Of a stretch of DNA of 64,000 bases, positions 2,091-18,515 are shown in pieces. The stretch spans positions 124,001 through 188,000 of the forward strand of contig NZ_SWJE01000015.1 of NCBI RefSeq assembly GCF_005144415.1. Direction: 5' to 3'. The notes beneath the pieces were generated by a model. The model was not told the DNA's origin and searched no databases. It saw only the letters and a list, made by a program, of their open reading frames with translations. Within the stretch, counting starts at the first letter, position 1, and every line of letters starts with the position of its first letter. The position numbers and the translations under genes are program-made. The stretch comes from Trinickia terrae. Its GTDB lineage: Bacteria > Pseudomonadota > Gammaproteobacteria > Burkholderiales > Burkholderiaceae.

Positions 2091-3131
2091 TTACGCGCCC
2101 GCAAGCGCCGCTTGCACCTTCTGGGCGACGTCGGCCGGCACCCACTGCTTCCACATCTCAGGATGCGTTTTCAGGAACTCGCGCGCCATGGTCGGGCCGT
2201 CGATTTTCTTGCTCGTCATCTCGAGGATCGTCTTGTTCAGGAAGTCCATCGGGAAGCTGACTTTCGAGTAGGCCGCGACGACGTCCGGCTCGGCCTGGGA
2301 GAACGGCGTCGACACGCCGACCTTCAGGTGCGACACCAGATACGACGACGCGCATTGCGACGCGCTGCTGTCCGCGCGCAGCGTCTCCCAGCACTTCTGG
2401 TTGAACGGCGGCATCTTCAGCTGGACGAACTTGTACTTCGCCATCAGCGCGGCCGGCTCCCAGTAGTAGAAGACGATCGGCTTGCCGCGCTCGTAGGCCG
2501 AGGTGATCGCCGCATCGAGCGCGGCGCCGGTGCCGGGACGGAAGTCCGTGTAGCTGTCGTCGAGCTTGAGCACTTTCAGAAGCCGCGTGTTCACGCGCTC
2601 GCAATCCCAGCCCGACGGGCAGTTCAAAAAGCGGCCCTTGCCCGGCTCTTCGTCGTCGGGGAAGACGTCCTTGTACTTCGGCAGGTCGGCCACCGACGCG
2701 AGGTTCGCCGCGACCGGCTTGATGTTGCGGCCCGGGTCGCCCTTCACGACGTACTCGGGCACGTACCAGCCTTCGTTCGTGCCGCCCGGCAGCGTGTCGC
2801 CGACCAGCTTCACACTGCCGTCCTTGATGGCCTTGGCGATGATTTCGGAACGGCCTGTCCACTGCTCGGCCCACACCTGCAGGTCGTTGCGCGAGAGCGC
2901 GGTTTCGGTGGCGGCGGTGTTGCCGGGCACGGTGTCGGTCTTGCAGCCGTAACCCTTCTCGGTGATGAAGCGCAGCACCTCGGTCGTGAACGAGCCGCTT
3001 TCCCACGTCACGCCGGCGAAGCGCACCGGCTTGCCGCTCGAGCACCACGTGCCCGCGTGCGCCGCGGCCGGCATCAGCGCGCCCGCTGCCAGGGCGATAC
3101 ATGACGCGCGCATCCATTGCTTGATTTGCAT
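2091..3131 (-). CDS. proX: Glycine betaine/proline-type ABC transporter substrate-binding protein
   Basis: Periplasmic binding protein, 346 residues. The signal peptide ends near residue 26 at AAAHA, followed by an OpuAC-type domain. Family features include GVTWESGSFTTEVL near the N-terminus and a YYWEP segment of the kind that forms the aromatic ligand box for quaternary ammonium groups. Its gene starts 38 bases after the enolase-family gene and is followed by proW and proV, so enzyme and importer are probably co-transcribed. The exact ligand (betaine, choline, proline betaine or another methylated amine) cannot be read from sequence. Confidence 0.92.
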   Translation of the reverse strand: MQIKQWMRASCIALAAGALMPAAAHAGTWCSSGKPVRFAGVTWESGSFTTEVLRFITEKGYGCKTDTVPGNTAATETALSRNDLQVWAEQWTGRSEIIAKAIKDGSVKLVGDTLPGGTNEGWYVPEYVVKGDPGRNIKPVAANLASVADLPKYKDVFPDDEEPGKGRFLNCPSGWDCERVNTRLLKVLKLDDSYTDFRPGTGAALDAAITSAYERGKPIVFYYWEPAALMAKYKFVQLKMPPFNQKCWETLRADSSASQCASSYLVSHLKVGVSTPFSQAEPDVVAAYSKVSFPMDFLNKTILEMTSKKIDGPTMAREFLKTHPEMWKQWVPADVAQKVQAALAGA

Positions 3132-3169
3132 CCTCGTCTCCAGTTGGTTCGTTTATTTGAAACGCCTTT

Positions 3170-4309
3170 TCAGGCGTAGGTGCTGCGCTTCGCGAGCGTG
3201 GCGTCGAGCGCGGCTTCGTCGATAGCCAGGCCAAGCCCTGGTGCATCGGACAAATTCAGCCAGCCTTCGGAGTCGATATCGATCGGGGCTTGCAACATGA
3301 AGTCGCGACGCTCGATCGACCACTCGGGCGGGTCGTACGGGAACTCGATGAAGGGCGCATTGGCGGCGCCCGCGGTCAGGTGAAGGTTGGCGGCGAGGCC
3401 GATGCCGTTGCCCCACGTGTGCGGCGTGAACACCTTGCCGCGCGCCTCGACGGCCTGCGCCAGCTTGCGCAGGCCTTCCATGCCGAGCGTGCAGGCGACG
3501 TCCGGCTGCACGACGTCGAGGCATTCGCGTGCGAGCAGCTCGTCGAACTCGTAGCGCTCGCGCGTGAGCTCACCGCCTGCGATGCGCACCGGCGTGCGTT
3601 GCCGCAGCTTCGCGTAGCCGTCGTAGTCGCCGCGATGCAGCGGCTCTTCCATCCAGTAGACGTTTTGCTTTTCGAGCTCGCGCGCGACGGCAAGCGCTTC
3701 GTCGACGGTCCAGGGCGCCTTGGTGTCCCACGGCATGCGCCAGCCCTGATTGCAGTCGACCATCAGCTCGAGCTTGCCGCCGACCGCATCGCGCACGGCG
3801 GCGAGCGCGTCGAGATCGCCGGCGAGGCGCGTGCGGCCGAAGCGGATCTTCAGCGCCGGAAAGCCGCGTTCGACGACGTGCTGCGCCAGCTTCGCCATCT
3901 CGCCGGGCGTGCGGTGCACGCCGCTCGATGCGTAGGCGCGCACGCGGTGGCTGCGCCCGCCCATCATCCTCCAGCACGGCTCGCCGCGGATCTTGCCGGC
4001 GAGGTCCCAGAGCGCGATGTCGAGCGGCCAGGGGCGGCCTGCGTGGAAGCCGATGTTGTCGAGCACGGCGCTGTGGCGGGGCAGGTCGAGCGGGTCGGCG
4101 CCGATGAACAGGTGCTCGTAGTCGGCGAAGCCGTACATTGCGTCGCCGGAGCCGAAGCCGACGCGGCCGGCGTCGTCGGTGATGCGCACGATCGTCGCGG
4201 GAAATTTGCGGCGCGGCTGGCTATCCCAGGACGCGGGGAACGGCGGGTCGAGCTCGAGCTGATGGTGCGTGATGTCGATCCGCGTGATGCGGTGGGCAGA
4301 GCTAGGCAT
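3170..4309 (-). CDS. Mandelate racemase/muconate lactonizing enzyme family protein
   Basis: Enolase-superfamily enzyme of 379 residues with an N-terminal capping domain and a TIM barrel. Visible catalytic positions are K154-x-R156 on the second barrel strand, metal ligands D185, E221 and E247 (GGE), and a D270/H297 dyad (QPD and TPHTW). This places it in the mandelate racemase subgroup. Arg replaces the second Lys of the usual KxK, so H297 may be the main base. Substrate unknown. Position as first gene of the betaine-importer operon suggests it acts on the imported compound (inference). Start at 4309 faces the divergent MocR regulator. Confidence 0.85.
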
Positions 4310-4360
4310 CCTGGGCTGTCTCCATTAGGTAAGTCGCCAGGGGCGGCGCTTCCGTTTCGG

Positions 4361-4499
4361 TGTATTGACTGCATCCTATGGGTGCAAAAGCCGCAACTCA
4401 ATCGCTTCAATCGAAGTAAATGACTGCATTCATTCTGTCCGGGCTCGCGCGCATAATGCGTCAATACAAAAGGAGAGCTGTTCATGGCAATGACTGCAT
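4361..4499. promoter_or_regulatory. Repeated TGACTGCAT boxes in the divergent MocR/enolase control region
   Basis: TGACTGCAT occurs three times in the same orientation at 4366-4374, 4421-4429 and 4491-4499. The last copy lies inside the first codons of the regulator gene. The first is part of TGTATTGACTGCAT, whose near inverse ATGCGTCAATACA lies at 4456-4468. MocR-type regulators are known to bind direct and inverted repeats in such divergent spacers, so these are candidate operators. CATAAT at 4452-4457, with TTCATT 17 bases upstream, could be the regulator's promoter. Confidence 0.6.
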
Positions 4500-5908
4500 G
4501 GCTGCCGAAACTGGAGACAGGAAGCGACCCCAAATACCAGGTGATCGCGCGGGCGTTTGCGCAGGCCATCCTCAACGGCCAGCTACCCGCGGGCGAGAAG
4601 CTGCCGCCGCACCGCTCGCTCGCAAGCGAGCTGCGCGTCACCACGGGCACGATCAGCCGCGCGTACGCCGAGCTCGAGCGGCAGGGGCTCGCGAATGCGC
4701 GCGTCGGCGACGGCACCTATGTCGCCCAGGCGCGCGCCAGGGAGGCCGCACCGGCGCCGTCCATCGCGCGCGGCGCGGCGTCCTCGCCCTCCACGCTGAT
4801 CGATCTCGGGCAGAACGTCCCTCAGCCGACCGCCGAAGCGCAGGTGCTCGTCCGGGCGCTGCGCGAGATCGCCGGCGACGAAGCGCTCGCCGCCGAATTG
4901 CTGCAATACGCGCCGGAAGCCGGGTTGATGCGCCACCGGGAGGCGGGCGCGAAGCTGTTCGCGCGCGCCGGCATGGCGGCCGCGAATCCCGCGCGCGTGC
5001 TCGTCACGCAGGGCGCGCAGCATGCGCTCGCGTCGGTGCTGCGCGCGGTCACGCGTCCCGGCGACACCGTGCTCGCCGAGATCGTCAGCTATCCGGGGAT
5101 CATCGGGCTCGCGCGCCAGCTGCGGCTGCATCTGGTCGGTATCGAAGTCGATCACGAAGGGATCGTGCCCGCCGCGCTCGATCTCGCGTGCAAGTCGCTG
5201 CATCCGCGTGCGGTCTTTTGCGTGCCGACGATCCACAATCCCACCACGGCGACGATGTCCGGTGAACGGCGCGACGCCGTCGCGTCGATCCTCGACCGCT
5301 ATGGCGTGCTGCTGATCGAGGACATCGTCCCGGCCATGTTGCTCGAAGCGCCGCCCGCGCCCGTTGCCGCGCGCCTGCCGGAGCAGTCGTTCCTGATCAC
5401 GGGGCTCGCCAAATCGGTGGCGCCGGGGCTGCGCGTGGGCTACGTGCAGGCGCCTCAGGCATGGTGTTCGAAGATCGCGGCGGTGGTGCGCAGCGATTGC
5501 TGGATGACCGCGCCGTTGCTCTCGGAGATCGCCGCGCGCTGGATCGAGAACGGCGAGATCGAGCGGCTCGACGGCTTGCAGCGCGCCTATGTCGAGACCC
5601 AGCAGACGGTGGCGCGCGAGGTGCTCGCGGGCGTCGCCTACCGGCATGCGGCGGCGAGCTCGCATCTGTGGCTGCCGTTGCCCGAGCCTTGGCGCGCGGC
5701 CGAGTTCGCCGCGGCGCTCCGTCAGGAGGGCGTGCTCGTGAAGACCGCCGACAGCTTCGTCATCGGCCGCAATGCCGCGCCGCACGCGGTGCGCATCTGC
5801 ATGACGGGCGCGCGCTCGATCGCGGCGCTGACGCGCGGCCTGTCGATCATTCGCGCGACGCTCGAGCATGGGCTCGAAGGCGAGGTGGCGGCGCCGTATG
5901 CGCCGTGA
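4484..5908 (+). CDS. MocR-family regulator (GntR HTH fused to aminotransferase fold)
   Basis: Protein of 474 residues with an N-terminal GntR winged helix (about residues 15-85: YQVIARAFAQAILNGQLPAGEKLPPHR) and a fold-type I aminotransferase domain from about residue 110. The PLP-binding lysine is K310 in TGLAKSVAPGLRVGYV. MocR proteins normally use PLP to sense an amine or amino acid and control a neighbouring gene. ATG 4484 is preceded by AAGGAGAG. It is divergent from the enolase/betaine-importer operon, its likely target, and TGACTGCAT boxes lie between them. Confidence 0.9.
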   Translation: MAMTAWLPKLETGSDPKYQVIARAFAQAILNGQLPAGEKLPPHRSLASELRVTTGTISRAYAELERQGLANARVGDGTYVAQARAREAAPAPSIARGAASSPSTLIDLGQNVPQPTAEAQVLVRALREIAGDEALAAELLQYAPEAGLMRHREAGAKLFARAGMAAANPARVLVTQGAQHALASVLRAVTRPGDTVLAEIVSYPGIIGLARQLRLHLVGIEVDHEGIVPAALDLACKSLHPRAVFCVPTIHNPTTATMSGERRDAVASILDRYGVLLIEDIVPAMLLEAPPAPVAARLPEQSFLITGLAKSVAPGLRVGYVQAPQAWCSKIAAVVRSDCWMTAPLLSEIAARWIENGEIERLDGLQRAYVETQQTVAREVLAGVAYRHAAASSHLWLPLPEPWRAAEFAAALRQEGVLVKTADSFVIGRNAAPHAVRICMTGARSIAALTRGLSIIRATLEHGLEGEVAAPYAP

Positions 5909-6029
5909 CGTCTCCGCAGCGCGTGTGATCCGCGACATCCGTCGACGCGGCTTGCGCAGAGAAGGGCGCATGGCATAATCCAGCCCCATCGCCGCCCTCC
6001 GGCGTCTTTTTCCTGTGCTCGCCGTCAGC

Positions 6030-6413
6030 ATGTTCCGCCGCCGTCTCCAGAAGATCGGAAGCCTGTTGGGATTGCTCGCAATCCTGATGAGCACGCTCGC
6101 GCCGACGGTATCGCAGGCGCTCGCGGCGCGTGATCGCGTCGACATCGCGCTCGAAGCGTACTGCACGGCGCAGCCGTCCTCCGCCGAGTCGCGCGACAAC
6201 GGGCAAGCTTCCGGGCCGCATGCACTGCTGCATTGGCAGGCCTGCGCGTATTGCGGCCTGCTGGCCCATGTGCCGGTGTTGCCCGGCGTGTACGCAAGTT
6301 TCGCCGCCGCCTCGATGGCGGCGCGCGCACCGGTCTTCGCCCAGCGCAGCGAGGTCCGCGCCGCTTCCTTCTTCACGGCCGCCCAGCCGCGCGCGCCGCC
6401 TGCCGTCTCCTGA
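6030..6413 (+). CDS. DUF2946 family protein
   Basis: Small exported or membrane protein of about 127 residues. An N-terminal hydrophobic segment (LGLLAILMSTLAPTVSQALA) is followed by the DUF2946 core with H-W-Q-ACAYCGLLAH, whose His and Cys residues could bind metal. DUF2946 genes often sit beside copper or TonB-linked genes; here an outer-membrane protein and CopC follow on the same strand. ATG 6030 was chosen; GTG 6015 is an alternative. Neither has an obvious ribosome site. Function unknown. Confidence 0.7.
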   Translation: MFRRRLQKIGSLLGLLAILMSTLAPTVSQALAARDRVDIALEAYCTAQPSSAESRDNGQASGPHALLHWQACAYCGLLAHVPVLPGVYASFAAASMAARAPVFAQRSEVRAASFFTAAQPRAPPAVS

Positions 6414-6443
6414 TTCGAATCCGTTTAGTCCACCGATAAATCG

Positions 6444-6496
6444 CGCAACGCTTTTTGACGGCGTTGCGGTACCGCCGCTCGCGTGAGCGGCGGTAC
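6444..6496. promoter_or_regulatory. Two adjacent inverted repeats upstream of the outer-membrane protein gene
   Basis: CGCAACGC (6444-6451) pairs with GCGTTGCG (6461-6468) around TTTTTGACG. Directly after it GTACCGCCGCTC (6469-6480) pairs perfectly with GAGCGGCGGTAC (6485-6496) around GCGT. The pair sits between the DUF2946 gene and the next start at 6521. The second stem has no following T run, so it may be an RNA processing or attenuation structure rather than a simple terminator. Confidence 0.5.
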
Positions 6497-6520
6497 TTCA
6501 TATGATTCGAAAGGAACCTC

Positions 6521-7444
6521 ATGCGCACGTTTCTCGAACGGAGACCGGCGTGTCTCGCCTCGGCCATCTACGCGGCCCTCGGCGCGGCGGCGTGTCTGAC
6601 AGCATCTCCCGCGGCTCACGCCCACGCCGTGGTCGGCGACCGCGTTTTTCCGGCGACGATGGCCGTCGACGATCCCGGCGTCGGCGACGAATTCAACATG
6701 GAGTTCAGCCACATCAAGACGTCCGACAGCAACGGCAACGACATGAACGTCAACACCGTCTCGTACGAGTGGGACAAGCTGATCACGAAGAACCTCGCGT
6801 TCAGCATCGCGAGCAACTACACGAGCCAGAACTCGCCGGACGGCAGCGCGAAGGGCTGGGACAATTTCACGCTCGGCGCGAAATATCTCGTCTATGCGAA
6901 CGCTCGGCATGAATTCATGGCATCGGTCGGGCTCCTCGCGACGCTCGGCGGCACCGGGTCGAAAGCAATCGCGAATTCGTTTTCGACGTTCACGCCGACC
7001 GTCTATTTCGGCAAGGGCTTCGGCGATTTGCCGAATTCGCTCGCTTATCTGCGTCCCTTCGCGATCACGGGCACGATCGGCCCGAACCTGACGACCGCGT
7101 CGTCGGACCAGGGACCGAACTCGCTCGGCTGGGGCGTGACGCTGCAGTACAGCATTCCGTACCTGCAGCAACAAGTGAAGGATCTCGGGCTGCCGCAGCC
7201 GTTCGCGAATCTGATTCCGGTCGTCGAGTTTCCGATGAGCACCTGCACGGCGGGCGCTTGCGCGGGCCAGACGACGGGCACGATCAACCCGGGCTTGCTG
7301 TGGCTCAACCGCTACGGGCAGTTCGGCGTCGAGGCGCAGATTCCCGTCAACAGCAGGGCCGGCACGCACACGGGAATATTGCTGCAGGCTCACGTGTATT
7401 TCGACGATATCTTCCCTAACTCTTTGGGCAAACCGCTCTTCTGA
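6521..7444 (+). CDS. Putative outer-membrane beta-barrel protein
   Basis: Protein of 307 residues with a signal peptide ending near residue 35 (SPAAHAHA). It continues with alternating aromatic/polar segments such as FNMEFSHIKTSDSNGND and ends in F, as many outer-membrane barrels do. A Cys pair (STCTAGACAG) lies in the last third. ATG 6521 has a good ribosome site (AAAGGAA). It stands between DUF2946 and copC, so a role in copper or metal handling is plausible by context only. I do not recognise a characterised homologue. Confidence 0.65.
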   Translation: MRTFLERRPACLASAIYAALGAAACLTASPAAHAHAVVGDRVFPATMAVDDPGVGDEFNMEFSHIKTSDSNGNDMNVNTVSYEWDKLITKNLAFSIASNYTSQNSPDGSAKGWDNFTLGAKYLVYANARHEFMASVGLLATLGGTGSKAIANSFSTFTPTVYFGKGFGDLPNSLAYLRPFAITGTIGPNLTTASSDQGPNSLGWGVTLQYSIPYLQQQVKDLGLPQPFANLIPVVEFPMSTCTAGACAGQTTGTINPGLLWLNRYGQFGVEAQIPVNSRAGTHTGILLQAHVYFDDIFPNSLGKPLF

Positions 7445-7452
7445 CCGTGAAC

Positions 7453-7833
7453 ATGACCATGAAAACTTCCCTGATCTCTCTTTCGATGCGCGGCGCGGCT
7501 GCCGCGCTGACCCTGACGCTCGCGCAGCTCGCGTTCGCGCATGCCTATCCGACCAAGCAAGTGCCGGGCGCCGGCGCTGCCGTGACGACCTCGCAAAAGG
7601 AAGTCGCGATCGATTTCGACGACGCGCTCGAACCCGCGTTCAGCTCGATTGCCGTGACGGATGCGTCGGGCAAGTCGGTCGTGAGCGGCAAATCGGCGGT
7701 GGATGCGTCGAACGCGAGGCACATGTCGGTCGCGCTCGCGGCGTTGACGCCGGGCGTCTACACGGTCGCCTGGGTTGCCGTTGCCGCCGATGGCCATCGC
7801 ACCCAAGGGCACTACACGTTCACCGTGAAGTGA
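7453..7833 (+). CDS. copC: CopC-family periplasmic copper-binding protein
   Basis: About 126 residues. The signal peptide ends at AFA, leaving His as the first mature residue (HAYPTKQVPG), the usual Cu(II) ligand of CopC. The domain continues to the conserved C-terminal DGHRTQGHYTFTVK, which supplies further His ligands. The gene is full-length. Its last 204 bases (7630-7833) are repeated with one mismatch at 10023-10226, downstream of the ATPase cassette, so the gene probably had its 3' end rebuilt when the cassette arrived. Start could be ATG 7453 or ATG 7459. Confidence 0.88.
   Translation: MTMKTSLISLSMRGAAAALTLTLAQLAFAHAYPTKQVPGAGAAVTTSQKEVAIDFDDALEPAFSSIAVTDASGKSVVSGKSAVDASNARHMSVALAALTPGVYTVAWVAVAADGHRTQGHYTFTVK
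7630..7833 (+). repeat. 204-bp direct repeat, copy 1 (copC 3' end)
   Basis: Begins at GAACCCGCGTTCAGC inside copC and ends exactly at its stop codon. The partner is 10023-10226, with no indels and a single difference (G at 7718, A at 10111; Arg to Lys in the translation). Identity stops abruptly on both sides: CTC versus GAT before, GGTGGG versus TGTTCC after. Together the copies bracket the ATPase/TOPRIM cassette. Confidence 0.95.
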
Positions 7834-7915
7834 GGTGGGCGCGTGCCCGTGCGTCTTTTCAGTGCGGAGGCTGTGGGCGTTTCAGGCGGGTTTGAGCCCC
7901 TGCCGCTGCGCACCT

Positions 7916-8040
7916 GTAATTCGTCGGGGCGCTTGAATTACCGCCCTGGCCCCGGCGCCCCCACGCTGATACGCACAAAATGCAAGCTTGCAGCGTAGGC
8001 GGAGCGGGCGGGCAATCGATGATTGACGGGTCTGCCCGCT
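7916..8040. other. Cluster of inverted repeats upstream of the ATPase gene
   Basis: GTAATTC (7916-7922) pairs with GAATTAC (7935-7941). TGCAAGCTTGCA (7981-7992) is a perfect 12-bp palindrome. AGCGGGC (8003-8009) pairs with GCCCGCT (8034-8040) around an inner CAATC-GAT-GATTG (8013-8025). The span has no credible coding frame. It could be a folded 5' leader, a small RNA or operator DNA. Confidence 0.45.
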
Positions 8041-8066
8041 GAAATCCATGACGACCCCCTAGGTGC

Positions 8067-8095
8067 TTATTGGTTGCGTCACGGGCTGGTACTAT
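8067..8095 (+). promoter_or_regulatory. Possible promoter for the ATPase/TOPRIM pair
   Basis: TTATTG (8067-8072) and TACTAT (8090-8095) are separated by 17 bases, 28 bases before the ATPase start. The -10 matches the consensus at four of six positions; the -35 is weak. Confidence 0.3.
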
Positions 8096-8123
8096 CCGGT
8101 TTCTTCCTACGGATTCGAGTTCA

Positions 8124-9326
8124 ATGAGCGTCTCGCCGTTTATCTCGCGCGTAGTTTTGCGCAACTACCGCAGCGTCGGCCAGTGTGATGTCTCGCTTGG
8201 TCCCTTGACTTACTTGGTTGGGGCGAACGGCGCCGGCAAGAGTAACTTTGTTGACGCCCTGCATCTGGTATCGGATGCATTGACGAGTTCTCTGGATCAA
8301 GCACTCAGCCGTCGCGGTGGATTGGCCGAGGTTCGACGACGTTCCAGCGGACACCCGACACATTTTGGAATTCGCCTTGAGTTCACTTTGGGCGGAAGAG
8401 TTGGGCATTACGCTTTCAATATTGGATCACTTAAAAATCGCGGTTTCGAAGTCCAGACGGAAGAATGTAGCCTCGGAGGGATAGGAAGCGGACCGTACTA
8501 TCGAATCGAGCATGGTCAGGTAAAAGCGAGCAGTGAGCCGACCTTGCCGGCTTTGACTGAGGACCGTTTGGCTCTGGTCGCCTTGTCCGGGTTGAGTGCA
8601 TTTAGGCCAATTTTCGACGCCCTTACGGGGATGGGTTTTTACAACCTCAACCCCAAGCTGATGCGCGAGCTACAAAAAGCTCAGGAAGGCCGACTCATGA
8701 AGCCGGAGGGGGAGAACATCGCTAGCGTTATTGGTCACCTGGACAAAGTCAACGCGCAAGCCCTCCGAGTAATCGAAGAATATTTACAAACAGTGGTGCC
8801 GACGGTGCATGCGGTCAAGCGAGTTCAAGTGGGACCGATGGAGACGTTGGAATTTCGTCAGGACGTGCCGGGCGCCAAAGACCGTTGGCGCTTCGCCGCG
8901 CAGAACATGTCTGACGGCACGTTGCGCGCTCTGGGCGTGTTGACCGCGCTTTTTCAAAGCAACCGCGATTTCGCACCGACGCTGATTGGTATCGAAGAGC
9001 CCGAAACAGCTTTACATCCGGCTGCCAGCGCAGCACTTCGTGAAGCCCTGCAGCGTGCTTCGTCGCAGACTCAGGTCATTGTCACGAGTCATAGTCCGGA
9101 GCTTCTTGATGACATGTCTATCCGAGACGATCAGATCATCGCTGTGGTCTCTGATGCTGGCGAGTCCAAACTTGCACGAATTGATCCCGCTTCGCGCGAA
9201 GCTATCCGCAAGCATTTATTTTCTGCAGGCGAGTTGTTGAAGCTGGGCCAGCTCCAGCCAGATCCCGATGCAATTCGGGATCAGGCTACGCGCCAAGCTT
9301 CGCTCTTTGACGGAGGAGCAGTTTGA
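8124..9326 (+). CDS. OLD-like AAA family ATPase
   Basis: About 400 residues from ATG 8124; an earlier in-frame start at 8070 would only add a poor N-terminus. Walker A is GANGAGKS at residues 33-40. An ABC-type signature NMSDGTLRALG lies near residue 262, the Walker B segment LIGIEEPETALHP near 290, and a switch histidine in TSHSPELLDD near 320. This order defines the AAA_15/AAA_21 ATPases of the OLD/RecF-like group, which drive several anti-phage nucleases. There is no TOPRIM domain in this chain; the next gene, overlapping by 4 bases, supplies one. Probable cytoplasmic sensor or motor of a two-gene defense system (inference). Confidence 0.85.
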   Translation: MSVSPFISRVVLRNYRSVGQCDVSLGPLTYLVGANGAGKSNFVDALHLVSDALTSSLDQALSRRGGLAEVRRRSSGHPTHFGIRLEFTLGGRVGHYAFNIGSLKNRGFEVQTEECSLGGIGSGPYYRIEHGQVKASSEPTLPALTEDRLALVALSGLSAFRPIFDALTGMGFYNLNPKLMRELQKAQEGRLMKPEGENIASVIGHLDKVNAQALRVIEEYLQTVVPTVHAVKRVQVGPMETLEFRQDVPGAKDRWRFAAQNMSDGTLRALGVLTALFQSNRDFAPTLIGIEEPETALHPAASAALREALQRASSQTQVIVTSHSPELLDDMSIRDDQIIAVVSDAGESKLARIDPASREAIRKHLFSAGELLKLGQLQPDPDAIRDQATRQASLFDGGAV

Positions 9327-9913
9327 CTCGGTTATCCAGCATAGTGGAAGGGCACGGCGAGGTTGCCGCGTTACCGGTTTTGCTGAGGCGGATTGCTCTT
9401 TGGCGATCACCTCATACGCATGTCGACGTTCAAACTCCGATACGCGTGCATAGAGATCGTTTCCTGAATCGAGCGGACGAATTTAGCCGACATCTGACGT
9501 TGGCGGGAGACAAGTGTGGTGACGACGGCTGGGTTTTGATTTTGCTGGATGCTGATGACGACTGTCCTGCCGTTCGAGGCCCGGAGATTTTGGCGCGCGC
9601 ACAACAAGTATTGCCGCATCGAACGGTCTCTGTGGTATTGGCAAATCGCGAGTTCGAAGCATGGTTTATTGGGGCGGCTGCTTCATTGAACGGTCAGCGC
9701 GGCCTTTCTATTACGGCGGCGGCTGACTTGGAAGTCGACGCAGAGTCGCCGCGAGACGCTAAAGGGTGGCTTCGAGAGCGAATGTCGGGTGGAACCTACG
9801 GTGAAACGACTGATCAACCTGCGTTTGCGGCCCGGATCGATTTGCAACAAGCATTGGAGCGCTGTAGATCGTTTCGCAAGCTTTGCGATGAATGGGATAG
9901 AAGTGTCGCCTGA
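9323..9913 (+). CDS. DUF4276-like protein with TOPRIM-like motifs
   Basis: 196 residues starting at TTG 9323. That start is supported by GGAGGAG at 9312-9318 and the four-base TTGA overlap with the ATPase stop. The N-terminal VEGHGE glutamates and the LILLDADDDCP acidic cluster near residues 69-79 match the E and DxD metal sites of TOPRIM nucleases. ANREFEAWFIGA is the conserved DUF4276 segment. OLD-type systems split across two genes use such a protein as effector (PARIS uses a different TOPRIM-like family, DUF4435). Likely translated with the ATPase at fixed ratio. Target nucleic acid unknown. Confidence 0.72.
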   Translation: MTRLSSIVEGHGEVAALPVLLRRIALWRSPHTHVDVQTPIRVHRDRFLNRADEFSRHLTLAGDKCGDDGWVLILLDADDDCPAVRGPEILARAQQVLPHRTVSVVLANREFEAWFIGAAASLNGQRGLSITAAADLEVDAESPRDAKGWLRERMSGGTYGETTDQPAFAARIDLQQALERCRSFRKLCDEWDRSVA

Positions 9914-10022
9914 ATTCGCTGGCGGTTTCTGCAGTTGCAAAACCGACGCCGATCACGCGGTCTGATTTCCAAAAGGGCGATGAGGGGATAAAAATACAAA
10001 ACCCACGTCATTATTGGAAGAT

Positions 10023-10226
10023 GAACCCGCGTTCAGCTCGATTGCCGTGACGGATGCGTCGGGCAAGTCGGTCGTGAGCGGCAAATCGGCGGTGGATGCG
10101 TCGAACGCGAAGCACATGTCGGTCGCGCTCGCGGCGTTGACGCCGGGCGTCTACACGGTCGCCTGGGTTGCCGTTGCCGCCGATGGCCATCGCACCCAAG
10201 GGCACTACACGTTCACCGTGAAGTGA
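10023..10226 (+). pseudogene. copC 3' remnant (direct repeat copy 2)
   Basis: Encodes the last 67 residues of CopC with one change (Arg to Lys) but has no signal peptide or first domain half. An in-frame TTG at 10014 could allow a short product, but no ribosome site is evident. It is probably the original chromosomal copC end, displaced when the cassette inserted. The hairpin at 10237-10270 follows it. Confidence 0.88.
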
Positions 10227-10236: not shown

Positions 10237-10270
10237 GCGGCCGGCGCCGGCGCCGGGTCCCGCCGGCCGC
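10237..10270 (+). terminator. GC-rich hairpin after the copC remnant
   Basis: GCGGCCGGCG (10237-10246) pairs perfectly with CGCCGGCCGC (10261-10270) over a 14-base loop. No T run follows, so it may be a weak or Rho-assisted terminator. It was probably the ancestral copC terminator, now separated from copC by the cassette. Confidence 0.45.
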
Positions 10271-10302
10271 GCCCTCATGGAAATCCCGTACGGAAGCGGC
10301 AT

Positions 10303-10320
10303 CTTCATGAAAGCATGAAG
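10303..10320. promoter_or_regulatory. Inverted repeat CTTCATG-N4-CATGAAG upstream of the ABC importer
   Basis: A perfect 7-bp dyad with a 4-base spacer lies about 80 bases before the binding-protein gene. Its size and position fit an operator for a dimeric regulator. The response regulator at 14649 is an obvious candidate, but nothing in the sequence proves it. Confidence 0.4.
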
Positions 10321-10400
10321 AAGGGTTCCCGCCTCTAGAATCCCGCCATCGACACCAGACGAGTGGCATCCCGCCGCTCCGACAAGAACGGAGACAATCG

Positions 10401-11414
10401 ATGCGACCCACCTTCCGCGCACTTCGCCATATCGCTCTCGCTTCCAGCCTGTTGTTCGGCATTGCATCGCAGCATGCGATGGCCGACGACGGCGGCAAGG
10501 TCACGATCATGGTCGGCGGGATCACGAAGCTGATTTATCTGCCGGCTCGCCTGACCGAGCAACTCGGCTATTTCAAGGACGAAGGGCTCGACGTCGAGCT
10601 GCTGTCGCAGCCGGCCGGCGTCGATGCCGAAAACGAGCTGCTGGCCGGCGCAGTCCAGGGCGTGGTCGGCTTCTACGACCACACCATCGACTTGCAGACC
10701 AAGGGCAAGGAAGTCAAGGCGATCGTCGTGTTCGGGCAGGTGCCGGGCGAAGTCGAGATGGTGTCGACCAAAGCCGCCGACTCGATCAAGTCGATGGCCG
10801 ACGTCAAGGGCAAGACGCTGGGCGTGACGGGCCTCGGCTCGTCGACGAGCTTCCTCACGCAGTTCCTCGCCGGCCAGCACGGCATCCAGTCGACCGAATA
10901 CACGATGCTGCCGGTGGGCGCCGACGCGAGCTTCATCGCGGCGGTCAAGCAAGGCCGCATCGACGCCGGCATGACCACCGAGCCCACCGTTTCCGCGCTG
11001 CAGAAATCCGGCGACGCGAAGGTGCTCGTCGACATGCGCTCGGTCGAAGGCACCAAGGCCGCGCTCGGCGGCACCTACCCGGCTTCGAGCCTCTACGTTC
11101 AAGCAGCGTGGGCCGACACGCACAAGGCCCAGGCGGCCAAGCTCGCTCACGCGTTCGTGCGCACCATGCAGTTCATCCACACGCACAGCGCGGAAGAAAT
11201 CGCCGCGAAGATGCCCGACGACTACCAGAAGGACAAGGCGCTCTACGTGAGCGCGCTGAAGGCCTCGCTGCCGATGTACACGGCGGACGGCAAGATGCCG
11301 GCCGACGGCCCGGAGACGGTGCTCAAGGTGCTGTCGGCGTTCAATCCGTCGGTCAAGGGCAAGCACGTCGATCTGTCCAAGACCTACACGAACGAGTTCG
11401 TCAGCTCGAAATAA
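10401..11414 (+). CDS. NitT/TauT-type ABC transporter substrate-binding protein
   Basis: 337 residues with a signal peptide ending near residue 28 (ASQHAMA) and an SsuA/THI5-like periplasmic domain (ITKLIYLPARLTEQLGYFKDEGLDVELL). Proteins of this group bind sulfonates, nitrate, pyrimidine precursors or aromatic acids; the ligand here is not evident. It is first of a three-gene importer (binding protein, ATPase, permease) followed by a two-component system and a porin. RBS: GGAGA 9 bases before ATG. Confidence 0.88.
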   Translation: MRPTFRALRHIALASSLLFGIASQHAMADDGGKVTIMVGGITKLIYLPARLTEQLGYFKDEGLDVELLSQPAGVDAENELLAGAVQGVVGFYDHTIDLQTKGKEVKAIVVFGQVPGEVEMVSTKAADSIKSMADVKGKTLGVTGLGSSTSFLTQFLAGQHGIQSTEYTMLPVGADASFIAAVKQGRIDAGMTTEPTVSALQKSGDAKVLVDMRSVEGTKAALGGTYPASSLYVQAAWADTHKAQAAKLAHAFVRTMQFIHTHSAEEIAAKMPDDYQKDKALYVSALKASLPMYTADGKMPADGPETVLKVLSAFNPSVKGKHVDLSKTYTNEFVSSK

Positions 11415-11518
11415 ATCGGCCCGGGCCGGCCGCGCTCGCGCGGCCGGCATCGCCGAAAGGCTTCGTTGCACTCGAGGCGCCGCCTGTCGCGGCTCCGGTT
11501 TTTCCAGGGATGTGCCCC

Positions 11519-12316
11519 ATGAACCAAGTTCCTTCTCAAGGCGCGCCGGCCATCGAGTTCCGCTCGGTGTCGTGCCGCTTCATTTCTCCCGACGGCAAGC
11601 CGACCGTCGCGCTGCGCGATTTCAGCATGTCGGTGGCGCAGGGCGAGTTCATCGCGATCGTCGGCCCCACGGGCTGCGGCAAGTCCACCACGCTCAGCAT
11701 GATCACGGGGCTCCTGAAGCCCACGGCGGGCGAGGTGCGCGTGATGGGCGCGCCCGTCAACGGCATCGATCCGCGCATCGGCTTCGTGTTCCAGGCGGAC
11801 GCGGTGTTCCCGTGGCGCTCGGTGCTCGACAACGTCGCGGCCGGACCGCTGTTTCGCGGCCGCTCGAAGTCGGCGGCCTACGACGAGGCGAACGACTGGC
11901 TGCGCCGCGTCGGCCTCGAGAAGTTCGGCAAGCACTATCCGCATCAGCTTTCGGGCGGCATGAGGAAGCGCGTCGCGCTCGCGCAGACCTTCATCAACAA
12001 GCCGGAAATCCTCTTGATGGACGAGCCGTTCTCCGCGCTCGACATGCAGACGCGCACGCTGATGCAGGACGAGCTGCTGCAGCTGTGGTCGGCGAATGCG
12101 GGCTCGGTGGTGTTCGTCACGCACGACCTCGAAGAGGCGATCGCGCTCGCCGACCGCGTGTTCGTGCTGACCGCGCGCCCGGCGACGCTCAAGAAGGTGT
12201 ACGAGATCGACCTGCCGCGTCCGCGGATCACCTCGGAGATCCGCTACGAGCCGCGCTTTATCGAAATTTCGCGCGACATCTGGCACGATCTGCGCGAGGA
12301 AGTCCAAATTGCTTAA
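11519..12316 (+). CDS. NitT/TauT-type ABC transporter ATP-binding protein
   Basis: About 265 residues: Walker A GPTGCGKST, Q-loop FVFQADAVFPWRSV, signature LSGGMRKRVALAQ, Walker B ILLMDEPFSALD and switch THDLEEA. The Q-loop 'FPWRSV' form is typical of SsuB/TauB-like ATPases. ATG 11519 has AGGGA about 9 bases upstream; ATG 11510 in the same frame is possible. It follows the binding-protein gene by about 100 bases, and the permease starts 25 bases after its stop. Confidence 0.9.
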   Translation: MNQVPSQGAPAIEFRSVSCRFISPDGKPTVALRDFSMSVAQGEFIAIVGPTGCGKSTTLSMITGLLKPTAGEVRVMGAPVNGIDPRIGFVFQADAVFPWRSVLDNVAAGPLFRGRSKSAAYDEANDWLRRVGLEKFGKHYPHQLSGGMRKRVALAQTFINKPEILLMDEPFSALDMQTRTLMQDELLQLWSANAGSVVFVTHDLEEAIALADRVFVLTARPATLKKVYEIDLPRPRITSEIRYEPRFIEISRDIWHDLREEVQIA

Positions 12317-12341
12317 TACGACAGTACGACGGAATACACTC

Positions 12342-13202
12342 ATGGCATCCCGTGATAGCGCTTTGAAAATGGACCTCGAAACCGCCTCCGCAGACGAGAT
12401 CGAGCGGATGGCCCGGCGCCGCCTGCAGCAGCGGCACGCATTGATCATCAGCCTGCGGATCCTCGTGCTGGTCGTCGTGCTGGGCGGCTGGGAGATCTCC
12501 GGCCGCATGAAATGGATCGACCCGTTCTTTTTCTCGATGCCGTCGCTGATCTTCCTGCAGATCATCGACTGGTTCCAGAACGGCACCTCGCAAGGCCCGC
12601 TGCTCGTGCAGGTGTGGGTCACGCTCGAAGAGACGCTGCTCGGCTTCCTTATCGGCTCGGCCGGCGGCATCGTGTGCGGCGTCGTGCTGGGCCGCAACAA
12701 GCTGCTCGCCGACGTGTTCGACATCTACATCAAGATCGCCAACTCGATTCCGCGCGTGGTGCTCGGCTCGGTGTTCGTGATCGCGCTCGGCCTCGGCATG
12801 GCTTCGAAGGTCGCGCTCGCGGTGGTCATGGTATTTTTTGTGGTATTCGGCAACGCCTTCCAGGGCGTGCGCGAAGCCGACCGCTACATGATTGCGAACG
12901 CGCAGATCCTCGGCGCTTCGAAACGGCAGCTGACCACCTCGGTGGTGATTCCGTCGGCGCTCTCGTGGATTCTCGCGAGCCTGCACGTGAGCTTCGGCTT
13001 TGCGCTGGTCGGCGCGGTGGTCGGTGAATTCCTCGGCTCGAAGCAGGGTATCGGTCTCTTGATTTCGACGGCGCAGGGCGCCTTCAACGCGAGCGGCGTG
13101 TTTGCGGCGATGATCGTGCTGGCCGTGGTCGCGCTCACGACGGACTATCTGCTTACCGCACTGGAAAAACGTCTGCTGAAATGGAGGCCTTCGTCATTCT
13201 GA
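12342..13202 (+). CDS. NitT/TauT-type ABC transporter permease
   Basis: 286 residues with a first membrane segment near residue 30 (IISLRILVLVVVLGGWEISG) and about five more. The permease EAA loop is seen as DRYMIANAQILGASKRQL. ATG 12342 was preferred over TTG 12309, which would overlap the ATPase gene. It completes the importer. A 12-bp hairpin follows at 13222-13249, before the sensor kinase gene. Confidence 0.88.
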   Translation: MASRDSALKMDLETASADEIERMARRRLQQRHALIISLRILVLVVVLGGWEISGRMKWIDPFFFSMPSLIFLQIIDWFQNGTSQGPLLVQVWVTLEETLLGFLIGSAGGIVCGVVLGRNKLLADVFDIYIKIANSIPRVVLGSVFVIALGLGMASKVALAVVMVFFVVFGNAFQGVREADRYMIANAQILGASKRQLTTSVVIPSALSWILASLHVSFGFALVGAVVGEFLGSKQGIGLLISTAQGAFNASGVFAAMIVLAVVALTTDYLLTALEKRLLKWRPSSF

Positions 13203-13221
13203 CGCTCGGAATCGAACGCGA

Positions 13222-13249
13222 ACGTCCTTGCCTGCCGGCAGGGACGTTG
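13222..13249 (+). terminator. Hairpin between permease and sensor kinase genes
   Basis: AACGTCCTTGCC (13222-13233) pairs with GGCAGGGACGTT (13238-13249), with one G-T pair and a 4-base loop. No clear T run follows, so it may only partly reduce read-through into the two-component genes. Confidence 0.45.
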
Positions 13250-13268
13250 TTGCATTGGAGAGTGTGCA

Positions 13269-14639
13269 ATGTTGCTTAGCTTGCGCGCGCGCCTGCTGGT
13301 GTGGCTGCTGCTGCCGCTCGCGCTGTTCGTCTTCGTGACCGGCAGGATGTCCTACGACGCGGCCCGGCAGACCGCCGACCTGCTGCAAGACAACGCGCTG
13401 CTCTCTTCCGCTCGCACCATCATCGAAGACGTCGACTGGCAGAACGGCGCGCTGACGGCGAACATTCCGCCCGCCGCGCTGGAGATCTTCGAATCGCCCT
13501 ATCAGGACCAGGTGTTCTACAAGGTGGTCGTCGATCACGACAGGCTGCTGGGCGGCAGTCCCGATCTGCCGCCGCCCGCGGACAGCCGCCGCTTCCCGGT
13601 GTTCTACAACACCTCGCTCGGCGGGCTGCCGATCCGCGCGGTGGCTTACCAGCGGGAGCTTTATGACTCGGGCAAGGCCCAGCAGGTCACGGTGATCGTC
13701 GGCAAGACGCAGGCGTCGCGGCAGGCCATGCTCGAAGACCTCTGGCATCCGCAGTTGATCCGCCAGTGGCTGATGCTGGCCCTGGTCGTGGTGCTCGTGC
13801 CGTTCGGGCTCACGATGGAGCTGAGGCCGCTGATGAAGCTCAAGGACGATGTCGCCGATCGCGGGCCGATGGAGCTCCAGCCGATCCGCGTGCACCATCT
13901 GCCTTCCGAGCTGCGGCCGATCGTCGATGCGATCAACCAGTGCATCGCGCGCCTCAAGGTGCATGCGGCGACCCAGCGTCAATTCATCGCCGATGCGGCG
14001 CATCAATTGCGCACGCCGCTCACGCTGCTCGACACGCAGGTGCAGTGCGCGAGCCAGTGCGACCTGCGCGATCCGTCGCTCACCGAGGCCTTGACCGGCA
14101 TCCGCCGCACGAGCCAGAAGATGGCCGACGTGACGAGCCAGCTGCTGCTGCTCGCGCAGGCGGAGTCGGTATCGGCGCCGCGCATGCAGGCCAGGATCGA
14201 TCTGGCGGCAGTGGTGTCGGCGGTGCTCGAGGAGCTCGTGGTTGCGGCGCAGCAGCGTCAGATCGATCTCGGCGCGGAGCTGGCGGACGGCATGCATGTC
14301 GCGGGCAACGCGAGCCTGCTCGAGGCGCTCGTGACGAATCTCGTCGACAACGCAGTCCGCTATACGCAGGAAGGGGGGAGCGTGACCGCGATCTGCCGCC
14401 GCGAGGGCGGCGACGTGGTGATGCAAGTGGTGGACAATGGTCCCGGCATCCCGGCCGAAGCGCGCGCGCACGTGTTCGAGCGCTTCTACCGCGTATCGGC
14501 CGATGTCGAGGGCTCCGGCCTCGGCCTTGCGATCGTCCACCAGATCGCGCTCGCGCACGGCGGCACGGTTGCTATCATGCCGGGCCCGCAGCGCGTCGGG
14601 CTCGTCGTGACGGTCCGCCTGCCTGCATGGAGTGATTGA
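13269..14639 (+). CDS. Sensor histidine kinase (TctE-like)
   Basis: 456 residues: membrane segment at 8-25, a periplasmic 2CSK_N-like sensor region, a second membrane segment near 163-182, then HisKA with phospho-acceptor H245 in AAHQLRTPLTLL. The HATPase domain carries NLVDNAVRYT, VVDNGPGIP and GSGLGLAIV. ATG 13269 has GGAGAG 6 bases upstream. The partner regulator starts 9 bases after its stop. TctE/TctD-type pairs usually control uptake of organic acids, consistent with the flanking importer and porin. Confidence 0.92.
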   Translation: MLLSLRARLLVWLLLPLALFVFVTGRMSYDAARQTADLLQDNALLSSARTIIEDVDWQNGALTANIPPAALEIFESPYQDQVFYKVVVDHDRLLGGSPDLPPPADSRRFPVFYNTSLGGLPIRAVAYQRELYDSGKAQQVTVIVGKTQASRQAMLEDLWHPQLIRQWLMLALVVVLVPFGLTMELRPLMKLKDDVADRGPMELQPIRVHHLPSELRPIVDAINQCIARLKVHAATQRQFIADAAHQLRTPLTLLDTQVQCASQCDLRDPSLTEALTGIRRTSQKMADVTSQLLLLAQAESVSAPRMQARIDLAAVVSAVLEELVVAAQQRQIDLGAELADGMHVAGNASLLEALVTNLVDNAVRYTQEGGSVTAICRREGGDVVMQVVDNGPGIPAEARAHVFERFYRVSADVEGSGLGLAIVHQIALAHGGTVAIMPGPQRVGLVVTVRLPAWSD

Positions 14640-14648
14640 GGTAAGAGA

Positions 14649-15323
14649 ATGAAGCTGCTGTTAGTCGAAGACAACATCGAACTGTCGCATTGGATCGTCA
14701 ATTTGCTGCGCGCCGAGAATTTCGCCGTCGATTGCGTGCCCGACGGCGAATCGGCCGATTCGGTGCTGACCACGCAACGCTACGACGTCGTGCTGCTCGA
14801 CATGCGCTTGCCGCGCATGAGCGGCAAGGACGTGCTCGCGCGCCTGCGCCGCCGCCGCGACAACGTGCCGGTGCTGATGCTGACCGCGCACGGCTCGATC
14901 GACGACAAGGTCGATTGCTTCAGCGCCGGCGCGGACGACTACGTGGTCAAGCCCTTCGACGGCCGTGAGCTGGTGGCGCGCATCAAGGCGCTGATCCGCC
15001 GGCAGCTGAGCGACAAATCGGGCTGGCTCATGTGCGGCGACCTGCAATACATCTCCGATACGCGGGAGTTCCGCCACAACGACGTGCCGCTGAACCTGCG
15101 CCGCCGCGAGCACGCGATCCTCGAGACGCTGATGCTGCGGCAGGGCAAGACGGTGTCGAAGAACACGCTGATGGACAGCGTGTTCGGCCTCGACGACGAG
15201 CCGAGCGCCGACGCCATCGACATCTACATCCACCGGCTGCGCAAGCACCTCGCGGCCTCGAGCGCGCAGATCATGACGCTGCGCGGGCTCGGCTACATCC
15301 TGCGGTCGAAGGAAGAGGCGTAG
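14649..15323 (+). CDS. OmpR-family response regulator (TctD-like)
   Basis: 224 residues. The receiver domain has the acidic pair E7/D8, phospho-acceptor D51 (VVLLDMRLP), T in MLTAHG and K in VVKPFDG. A winged-helix effector domain runs from about residue 125 and ends in IMTLRGLGYIL. Encoded right after its kinase. Likely targets are the porin gene 200 bases downstream and/or the ABC importer upstream (inference from position). Confidence 0.93.
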   Translation: MKLLLVEDNIELSHWIVNLLRAENFAVDCVPDGESADSVLTTQRYDVVLLDMRLPRMSGKDVLARLRRRRDNVPVLMLTAHGSIDDKVDCFSAGADDYVVKPFDGRELVARIKALIRRQLSDKSGWLMCGDLQYISDTREFRHNDVPLNLRRREHAILETLMLRQGKTVSKNTLMDSVFGLDDEPSADAIDIYIHRLRKHLAASSAQIMTLRGLGYILRSKEEA

Positions 15324-15519
15324 TGCGGTTGAGGTTGCGGCGGCCCCTATCAGTAGTATCACTTAGTTGTTCGAATGAGACACGAAAGGAGCGTGAAGGA
15401 TTGAGGTAACTAGGATTCGTCTCATCCGTTGAACGTCGTGGTTGCCGATGACTTGGCAGGCGGTGGTAATCGACAGCGGACCAATCAGAACTTCAACGCA
15501 GCACCCTGAGGAGACAATC

Positions 15520-16650
15520 TTGAAGCAAAAGTACCTCGCGTTCGCCGTCACGGCAGGCGCACTCGCAGCAAGCAACGCACACGCGCAATCGAGCGTGCAG
15601 CTCTATGGCCTCATCGACCTGTCCGCCGTCGCCTACACGACGAACGCCGACAAGGCCGGCAACCACGTGATCGGCATGGGCCACGACGGCGAGCCATGGT
15701 TCAGCGGCAGCCGCTGGGGCCTGCGCGGCGCCGAGGACATCGGCGGCGGCTCGAAGATCGTCTTCACGTTGGAAAGCGAATTCGTTGCCGCGAACGGCAA
15801 CATGGAAGATTCCGGTCAGATCTTCGACCGTGACTCGTGGGTCGGCATCCAGAACGACACGTTCGGCGAGTTTTCGGCCGGCTTCCGGGACACCGTTGCG
15901 AAGGACTTCTCGGGACTCTACGGCGACCCGTACACCAGCGCGGAGTTCTCGACGAAGGAAGGCGCCTACACCAACTCCAACAACTTCAAGCAACTGATTT
16001 TCTACGCGGCTGGCCCGACGGGTACGCGTACCGAGAACGGCATCCAGTGGCGCAAGCTCTTCAGCAACGGCATTTATGCGGCTGCTGACTATCAGTTCAG
16101 CAACTCGACGCAGTTCGCCAACGGCTCGGGCTACCAGGCCGCGCTCGGCTGGAACGTTGGGCCAGTCTCCTTCGGCGGCTTCTACGATCACACGAACAAC
16201 GGCGGCTTCGTCGATCAGACGTACTCGGTGGGTGGCGACTATCGCTTCGGCATCGGCCGTGTCAACGCCGGTTACTTCCATTACACGGGCAAGCAGGGCT
16301 CGCTGCCGGACCGGGTGGACAACGCGTGGACGGTATCGTTCAAGCTCGCGCCGAAGGGCCCGCTGGACTATGAGCTCGGCTATCAGCAGATGCACGTGAA
16401 GAATGCCGCCTACAACAGCAGCGGCGATATCCCGAACGCCAACTCCGGCTCGTTCGACACGACGGCCACGACGGTCAACAACGGCTACAAGGAAACGGTC
16501 TACGCGTCGACCTTCTATCACCTGTCGAAGCGCACCGAGCTGTACCTGGCTGCCGACTACATGAAGCTGCACGGCGGCTACACGGTGGCGGGAACGAACG
16601 GCCACAACAGCCAGCTCGAAGTGGCGACGGGCATCCGCACGCGCTTCTGA
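15520..16650 (+). CDS. Gram-negative porin (Burkholderia type)
   Basis: Outer-membrane trimeric porin, 376 residues. The TTG start at 15520 is supported by GAGGAGA at 15508-15514 and gives the typical signal peptide MKQKYLAFAVTAGALAASNAHA. The mature protein begins QSSVQLYGLIDLS and ends in RTRF with the C-terminal Phe required for barrel assembly; the GLRGAEDIGGG turn is family-typical. It stands after the two-component system, suggesting regulated uptake together with the upstream importer. A clear terminator follows. Confidence 0.93.
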   Translation: MKQKYLAFAVTAGALAASNAHAQSSVQLYGLIDLSAVAYTTNADKAGNHVIGMGHDGEPWFSGSRWGLRGAEDIGGGSKIVFTLESEFVAANGNMEDSGQIFDRDSWVGIQNDTFGEFSAGFRDTVAKDFSGLYGDPYTSAEFSTKEGAYTNSNNFKQLIFYAAGPTGTRTENGIQWRKLFSNGIYAAADYQFSNSTQFANGSGYQAALGWNVGPVSFGGFYDHTNNGGFVDQTYSVGGDYRFGIGRVNAGYFHYTGKQGSLPDRVDNAWTVSFKLAPKGPLDYELGYQQMHVKNAAYNSSGDIPNANSGSFDTTATTVNNGYKETVYASTFYHLSKRTELYLAADYMKLHGGYTVAGTNGHNSQLEVATGIRTRF

Positions 16651-16702
16651 TCCAAGGATCGTCCTCCTCGCAGCACAAACCTCGACTGAATGTGCTCCGA
16701 TT

Positions 16703-16736
16703 TGCGGCGGCGGACTTGTCCGCTCGCCGCTTTTTT
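16703..16736 (+). terminator. Rho-independent terminator of the porin gene
   Basis: GCGGCG...GGAC pairs with GTCC...CGCCGC with one bulge, followed directly by TTTTTT. Confidence 0.8.
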
Positions 16737-16740
16737 CTGT

Positions 16741-16870
16741 CGACCTGAGTCAGCGCTTCAGCGTGTCGACCAGAGTTAGTGCTTCAGCACTTACTCTGGT
16801 CCCATGCAGAGCCTTGCTCCGGTCCCATGCTGTGGTTGCCTGGAGTTGGTGCTTTAGCACTTGCTCCAGG
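16741..16870. repeat. Dispersed hairpin repeat, copy B (porin-chemoreceptor spacer)
   Basis: Contains a partial unit (16741-16769) and two hairpins. CCAGAGTTAGTGCT pairs with AGCACTTACTCTGG (16770-16799). CCTGGAGTTGGTGCT pairs less fully with AGCACTTGCTCCAGG (16839-16870). TCCCATGC follows the first and appears again between them. Compared with copies A and C, changes in one arm are matched in the other (CCGG to CCAG with CCGG to CTGG; GCGCT to GTGCT with AGCGC to AGCAC), which argues that the folded form matters. Confidence 0.72.
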
Positions 16871-16901
16871 CCCGCAGCGCTCGATGCATCAGAGGGCAAC
16901 C

Positions 16902-18515
16902 ATGTTCAGGAACGCTACCGTCCGCATGGCGCTGACGCTGACGATCGCAGGATTTACGGGGGCGCTGATGCTGGTGATCGCAGCGTCGATCGCCGGCCTG
17001 CAGACCGCCAACCGCGCGCTCGAAAAGATGTACAGCGAAGAGACCGCCGCGCTGCAACACTTGACCGCGAGCAGCGAAGCCCTGCTGCAAGTGCGGGTCG
17101 ATCTCGGCGCGTACGAGACGCTCGTCGCGCAAGGCAAACCCACGGCCCCGGTGCTGGCCCGCGTGCATGCGGAGCTGGCCGACAGCAATCGCGAGCTGGC
17201 GGGCTACACCGCCTTGAACCGCTCGAGCGACGCCGAGAAGGCGCTCGCGGACGCGCTGCACGCCAGGCGCGACAAGCTATTGAACGACGTGCTGACGCCC
17301 GAGATCGCGGCGCTGGACCAGGACGATTTCATGACGTTCCGCACGACGGAGCGGCAAGCGCCCGAAGCCGTGTTCAGCGACTACAAGCACGCGGCGCTCG
17401 CACTCGAAGATTTCCAGATCCAGCATCAGAAGGCCCGCTTCGAATCCGCGCAGCAGAATTTCCACGGGCTGCTTTGGCTGTTCGGCGCGATCGGCGCGGC
17501 AGCGATCGCGCTCGGGCTCTTTGCACGCTACGCGCTCACGGCATCGATCGTGAAGCCGATCAATGCGGCGATTCATCATTTCGAGCGGATTGCGGCGGGC
17601 GACTTGACCAATACGATCGATACGCAGCGCACGAACGAAATGGGCCGGCTGCTCGCGGCGCTCGCGCGCATGCAGGCGGGCCTCGTTGCCGCGGTGGCGC
17701 AGGTGCGTCACGGCACGGCCGCGATCACGCACGGCGTGCGCGAGATCGCGAGCGGCAACGCCGACTTGTCGGCCCGCACCGAGCAGCAGGCGGCCACGCT
17801 CGAGGAAACCGCCTCGAGCATGGAGGAGCTGACCGCGACGGTCCGGCAGAACGCGGACAACGCGCGGCACGCCAGCGAGCTCGCGGAAAACGCCGCGCGC
17901 ATCGCGGCGCGCGGCGGCGAGGTGGTGGGCCAGGTTGTCGACGTGATCGAGGACATGTCGTCGGGCTCGAACCGGATCGTCGACATCATCGGCGCGATCG
18001 AAGGGATCGCATTCCAGACCAACATCCTCGCCTTGAACGCAGCGGTCGAAGCGGCACGCGCCGGCGAGGAAGGGCGTGGCTTCGCAGTGGTCGCGGGCGA
18101 GGTGCGCGCGCTCGCGCAGCGCTCGGCCGCAGCGGCAAAGGAGATTCGCGAGCTCATTGGCGAATCCGTCGCGAAGGTGCACAACGGCTCCGAGCTCGCG
18201 GCGCGCGCCGGCGCGACCATGGCTGAGATCGTCGATGCCGCGCGCAGCGTGACGGGCATCGTCGGCGAAATCAGCGTGGCGTCGGAGGAGCAGTCGCGCG
18301 GCATCGACCAGATCAATCGCGCGGTGTCGCAGATGGATAACGTGACGCAGCAGAACGCCGCGCTCGTCGAAGAGGCCGCGGCGGCGGCGGCATCGCTGGA
18401 CGAGCAGGCGCGTGCGCTCGATGACGCGGTGGCGGTGTTCCAGCTGCGCCAGGCTGCCGCGGAAGATGGGCAACAGAACGGCCCGGCGTTCGCGCTATCG
18501 CCGGCATACGCATGA
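16902..18515 (+). CDS. Methyl-accepting chemotaxis protein
   Basis: 537 residues from ATG 16902 (AGAGGG upstream): membrane segment 9-32, periplasmic four-helix-type sensor, second membrane segment about 187-208, HAMP about 209-262. The cytoplasmic signalling helix hairpin has its tip at [21 protein letters not shown]. An upstream in-frame extension would run through the hairpin repeat and was rejected. No C-terminal NWETF-like CheR-docking pentapeptide is present. Stop overlaps the next gene's ATG by 4 bases. Ligand unknown. Confidence 0.93.

Follow-up and report, generated by a model that had tools for sequence, protein, structure and literature searches.

Insertion with long target duplication is a form of gene entry that was reportedly set out for restriction-modification genes by Nobusato et al. 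in 2000 (Gene 259:99) and Furuta et al. in 2010 (NAR 38:2428). In the passages of four papers that treat this form, the duplicated target is variable in length and of the order of 100 bp, and the resulting repeats are expected to permit tandem amplification (PMC3031569, PMC1643837, PMC3874152, PMC4978471). Small defense gene pairs often stand alone in chromosomes without a visible mobility gene. HEC is short for Hma-embedded candidate; several of these candidates have antiviral activity according to a passage that names HEC-06 (PMC12988326), and HEC-01 is named in a passage on the systems of Desulfovibrio piger strains (PMC12724379). The defense literature searched for target duplications and for direct repeats at insert flanks contained no link of HEC-01 to target duplication, searches for DUF4276 and for HEC-01 together with PADLOC returned no mention, and of the matches listed for "HEC-01" by itself nearly all came from other fields, judged by title.

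The window analyzed here is a stretch of 64,000 nucleotides from Trinickia terrae (contig NZ_SWJE01000015.1, positions 124,001 to 188,000), in which a putative HEC-01 pair lies between two copies of the 3′ end of copC. The original prediction had stated that, if copC ends were a recurring anchor, this would be a small defense hotspot of a kind that it did not recognize; the form matches that of insertion with long target duplication and the cargo is catalogued, and the window is a clean new example of the described form with another kind of defense cargo. As in the restriction-modification cases, a small defense-type gene set is found between direct target copies of at least about 100 bp with no mobility gene between them. 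The window differs in that the copies are 204 bp long as against "the order of 100 bp," in that its empty allele is not exact, and in that the cargo is HEC-01, so that the window works like the described cases without being one of them as first defined. The form is thereby extended to another class of defense gene, in a recent case whose nearly identical target copies have borders sharp enough for entry, excision, and amplification to be put to the test.

The copC gene (7447..7833, forward strand; CopC domain, Pfam, 2.5e-21) is an intact open reading frame, as had been predicted, and its last 204 bases, which run in frame from codon 62 through the complete stop codon, constitute the left copy of a direct repeat (7630–7833). 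The right copy (10023–10226, forward strand) is a 3′ fragment of copC without a start. Comparison of the window with itself bore out the predicted geometry, with a start-to-start distance of 2,393, 2,189 bp of DNA between the copies, zero indels, and one mismatch, a G at 7718 in the left copy and an A at 10111 in the right; the computed chance of a 203/204 identity arising at random within 64 kb is far too small for such an origin. Both borders are abrupt, since all five bases that precede the repeat on the left differ between the copies, and on the right the first base differs, the second and third match by chance, and the next four differ; no microhomology was evident at the insert junctions in this base-level comparison. 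The GC content falls from 0.65 in copC to 0.55 in both cargo genes, in keeping with the A/T-richer insert first described, and is 0.62 in the left spacer (7834..8123), which is unlike the DNA 3′ of copC in the sister species, and 0.48 in the right spacer (9914..10022), which has no similarity to the DNA 3′ of copC in the sister genome G002.

A Pfam scan of the two genes and of four other open reading frames of at least 80 amino acids found no recombinase between the copies, those four having no match, which agrees with the integrase and transposase having been noted as absent. No inverted-repeat pair was found at the insert ends among the best 25 of 40 pairs. A transposon or composite transposon was rejected on the lack of such a pair and of a transposase domain in the scanned frames; moreover, DNA homology to other HEC-01 pairs reaches little past the two genes, so that there are no conserved element ends, which likewise argues against a transposon. 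Elsewhere in the window, a unit of about 370 bp occurs twice in tandem (18918–19288 and 19330–19695; 83% identity), and there is a dispersed 72-bp direct repeat at 86% identity (2020–2091 and 16761–16831).

Both cargo genes lie on the forward strand, and the ATPase and DUF4276-like identities proposed for them were confirmed by Pfam and PADLOC. The upstream gene (8124..9326) encodes an OLD/RecF-like AAA_21 ATPase of 400 amino acids (Pfam AAA_21, 1e-27) that matches the PADLOC HEC-01A profile at 591 bits over residues 4–391, and the downstream gene (9323..9913), which has a TTG start overlapping the ATPase stop, encodes a DUF4276 protein of 196 amino acids (Pfam DUF4276, 1.2e-14) that matches the HEC-01B profile at 295 bits over residues 1–195. 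The genes are adjacent with a 4-nt overlap and match both profiles required for HEC-01, by which the cassette may be assigned to this catalogued candidate anti-phage system. In both profiles and in adjacency the pair agrees with HEC-01 as catalogued by PADLOC, but it adjoins copC and is not inside an Hma locus; the pair at locus L086, described below, is inside one.

In a structure-chain search, the ATPase profile matched chains of OLD, PtuA, GajA, and AriA, and it is in this respect that the window protein resembles OLD, Gabija (GajA), PARIS (AriA), and retron/Septu PtuA. Its partner, however, is a DUF4276 protein rather than a fused TOPRIM, GajB, AriB (DUF4435), or PtuB. An alignment of 64 DUF4276 sequences showed conservation of VEGxGE near the N-terminus and of an LDADDD stretch, with G10, D76, E112, K147, and Q165 invariant. 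The predicted structure of the DUF4276 protein had a pLDDT of 96.8 and, in a Foldseek comparison with the PDB, zero matches at E 0.001 or better. From the conserved motifs and the succession of secondary-structure elements in the model, which fit by eye, we propose that the DUF4276 protein is a TOPRIM-like nuclease. By analogy with OLD- and PARIS-type systems, HEC-01 likely works through a sensor ATPase that governs a nuclease partner, in which case the ATPase would sense infection and control the DUF4276 protein, the proposed TOPRIM-like nuclease.

The genus sample comprised three genomes, that of the window and those of two sister species (G001 and G002). The DUF4276 gene was found in neither sister, the insert DNA had no match in their copC stretches, and each has one copC end, within 4.5 kb downstream in G001 (to the contig end) and 8.3 kb in G002; the prediction of an inserted, foreign-looking, defense-type cassette is thus upheld at this locus. 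Across the compared stretch, G002 is collinear with window positions 3001–7838 and 10245–18029, the right part reaching back to 10237 when gaps are allowed in the alignment; judged by this collinearity, the right flank, which consists of intergenic DNA and an NMT1-like gene (10237..11414, forward strand), is native. At the mismatch, the right copy and both sisters share the codon AAG, as against AGG in the left copC, from which it follows that the left copy has the derived base and that the change occurred in the functional copC. Either copy differs from the sister species at 23–28 of 204 sites, and since the copies are nearly identical to each other, the duplication is recent in the lineage or has been homogenized by gene conversion.

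Relatives with an empty site, in which copC would directly precede sequence like that from 10227 onward, had been named as support; an exact empty site was not found in G001 or G002, whose DNA 3′ of copC differs. In G002, 607 bp of other DNA, which by eye is porin-like and transporter-like debris, separate the copC stop from the 10237-like sequence, and copC of G001 is followed by several genes, among them what by eye is an IclR-like regulator. Both sisters share, 3′ of copC, a terminator-like inverted repeat of 32 bp that is absent beside both window copies. Given this missing repeat and the 607 bp in G002, some deletion close to the site has to be posited as well. At the copC end of G001 (L125, near 4480–4500), the last 10 bases of copC are tandemly repeated directly after the stop.

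No second copC end was present at any of 50 relative copC loci with 3.8–12.4 kb of downstream sequence (threshold 36 bits; 49 of the 50 with at least 4 kb, and one being the copC paralogue of the genome that contains the window). Downstream of these loci, the gene's own end was matched at 35.6 bits at most, as against 364 bits for the window as a positive control. On this count, the copC end as a recurring hotspot is rejected for the relatives examined, and the recurring anchor that the original prediction had raised is not supported. A second end was likewise missing from 38 entries, most of which have about 1.5 kb downstream, too short for a copy at the window's distance. A survey of 398 family genomes, which scored two candidates per genome, gave a copC-end match in 162, with two nearby copies only in the window's genome among the matches listed.

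DUF4276 matches occurred in nine of the 398 family genomes, the window's own included, and in four of the other eight (G218, G271, G316, and G365) the DUF4276 gene and copC are on different contigs; among these four comparable genomes, none carried the pair after copC without the repeat. A class-wide search gave four of 369 genomes, again counting the window's own. Only 3 of 72,556 plasmid records and 1 of 50,697 phage records had a DUF4276 match, which makes ordinary carriers a rarity in these two collections, and no source was found when the insert DNA was compared with plasmid and phage sequences. In viral contigs, six loci matched at 27–49% identity, two of them over most of the query. The left spacer gave scraps of at most 37 bp in nine other genomes of 349, which we read as chance matches.

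Flanking DNA was compared for HEC-01 pairs of many phyla (80 + 8 loci), and three of these loci show the form seen in the window. At L018, within a type I restriction-modification locus, the pair starts where hsdS ends, and directly after the pair there is a second copy of 118 bp from the hsdS 3′ end (83%), hsdS being split there over two overlapping open reading frames. At L086, HmaB and HmaC enclose the pair, with an HmaC 5′-like remnant to its left, after intact HmaB, and an HmaB 3′-end remnant to its right, before intact HmaC; the remnants (left 5673–5873, right 7824–8055) align as one decayed duplicated junction of about 200 bp, and on this alignment what was duplicated at L086 is the target, as opposed to an attachment site at the end of a gene. 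At L027, the pair lies between a tRNA-Val gene and a 33-bp copy of the tRNA-Val 3′ end (97%), HEC-01 supplies the sole recognized genes of the insert (5609–8080), and no integrase was recognized in it. In G767, a sister of the L027 genome, the tRNA-Val end is single, with the left flank matching at 91% over 699 bp and the right at 83% over about 137 bp, and the arrangement at L027 appears nearer to a classical attachment-site insertion.

Bracketing direct repeats were modestly enriched around HEC-01. At the DNA level they occurred at 6 of 86 loci with the window included (5 of 85 without it) versus 7 of 446 shifted positions, and at the protein level at 7 of 86 loci, window included, versus 6 of 286 controls; with the window left out, the one-sided p was 0.03 at each level, for controls that are not independent. 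The loci counted have at least 150 bp of flanking DNA to either side; L151, which has no gene A, was left out, and the strong control matches stem from L050, L064, and L068, which contain long internal duplications. Two of the five bracketed loci other than the window are of another type and were rejected as single target duplications, L054 being a dispersed repeat and L050 a tandem duplication of the whole unit. The L050 unit (3623–7338) consists of a PhyH 3′ end, HEC-01A, and a sulfatase 5′ end, repeated at about 75%, and its second copy has no DUF4276 gene. L019 has an hsdR 5′ remnant to the left of the pair and an hsdS 3′ end to the right, both like those of L018; its left-right likeness covers just 20 residues, and it was not counted as bracketed. 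At most HEC-01 loci, no bracketing repeat was found in the flank comparison.

With moderate confidence, we favor the reading that a HEC-01 cassette of 2,189 bp without a mobility gene was inserted recently, immediately after the copC stop, with duplication of a 204-bp target. In favor of this reading are the sharp repeat, which exactly brackets compositionally distinct DNA, the native right flank, the sisters' lack of insert DNA at copC and of a DUF4276 gene, the recurrence of the form with HEC-01 at L018, L086, and L027, and the long target duplications of variable length described for restriction-modification genes. The site before insertion would have been a copC ending directly before 10227, and the outcome the present order of copC, cassette, and copC 3′ fragment. 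Duplicative entry could have come about through repair of a staggered break or through one crossover with a circular or end-joined molecule that had a copC end of its own, and the 204-bp repeats would enable RecA-mediated deletion or tandem amplification of the cassette. Against this reading stand the modest enrichment, the majority of HEC-01 loci without a repeat, the want of an exact empty site, the extra deletion needed, and the right border exactly on the stop codon, which a random duplication rarely produces. An assembly artefact could also explain the repeat, the genome being in 72 contigs and 204 bp being near short-read length; yet the copies differ at one base, their borders fall where distinct DNA, missing here in the sister species, begins and ends, and the contig continues for 373 kb across the repeat, and we hold an artefact to be very improbable.

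The same termination of the repeat on the stop codon is what site-specific integration at the copC 3′ end would give, with an integrase that was supplied in trans or later disappeared and the element's own copC end restoring the gene. As in integrase-made islands at gene and tRNA 3′ ends, the gene is restored and its 3′ end repeated beyond the insert; the duplicated piece of L018 is likewise at a gene 3′ end, and the HEC-01-only insert of L027, between tRNA-Val 3′ ends and empty in G767, resembles an attachment-site insertion without an integrase. Such islands differ from the window, however, in which there is no integrase between the copies, 204 bp at 203/204 is long for an attachment site, and the gene end is not diverged, as an element-borne one usually is; no other copC-borne element was found among the 50 copC loci, and L086 duplicates a two-gene junction, so that the target itself can be duplicated and not only a gene end. 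On balance, integration of this kind is unlikely. Plain homologous recombination with another strain's copC, cassette, and copC end would make the repeat uninformative on entry here, as it would have arisen elsewhere, and the near identity of the copies beside sisters that differ at 23–28 of 204 sites would place such a donor in the same or a very near species; this merely moves the question to the donor, none of which appeared among the family genomes examined, and we regard it as quite unlikely. Returning to insertion with target duplication, a broader version would make HEC-01 a minimal recombinase-less mobile defense unit that enters copC, hsdS, the HmaB/HmaC junction, and tRNA-Val with target duplications of about 30–230 bp, and would make long target duplication a general route for small defense cassettes without phage or plasmid, a generalization that we consider distinctly improbable.

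Two further pairs were compared with their relatives. In sister species, the site of the G160 pair (L145) is either empty or filled by other DNA, with lengths of about 1.6 to 13 kb, and no long duplication was detected there though empty sites exist; for the G113 pair, an empty site was not found, the flanks being insufficiently syntenic. A stretch of at most about 400 bp beside the pair at L145 matches many other places in these genomes. At L147, L148, and L149, in three genomes of one genus, HEC-01 adjoins what by eye is a substrate-binding-protein-like gene, perhaps at one shared insertion site.
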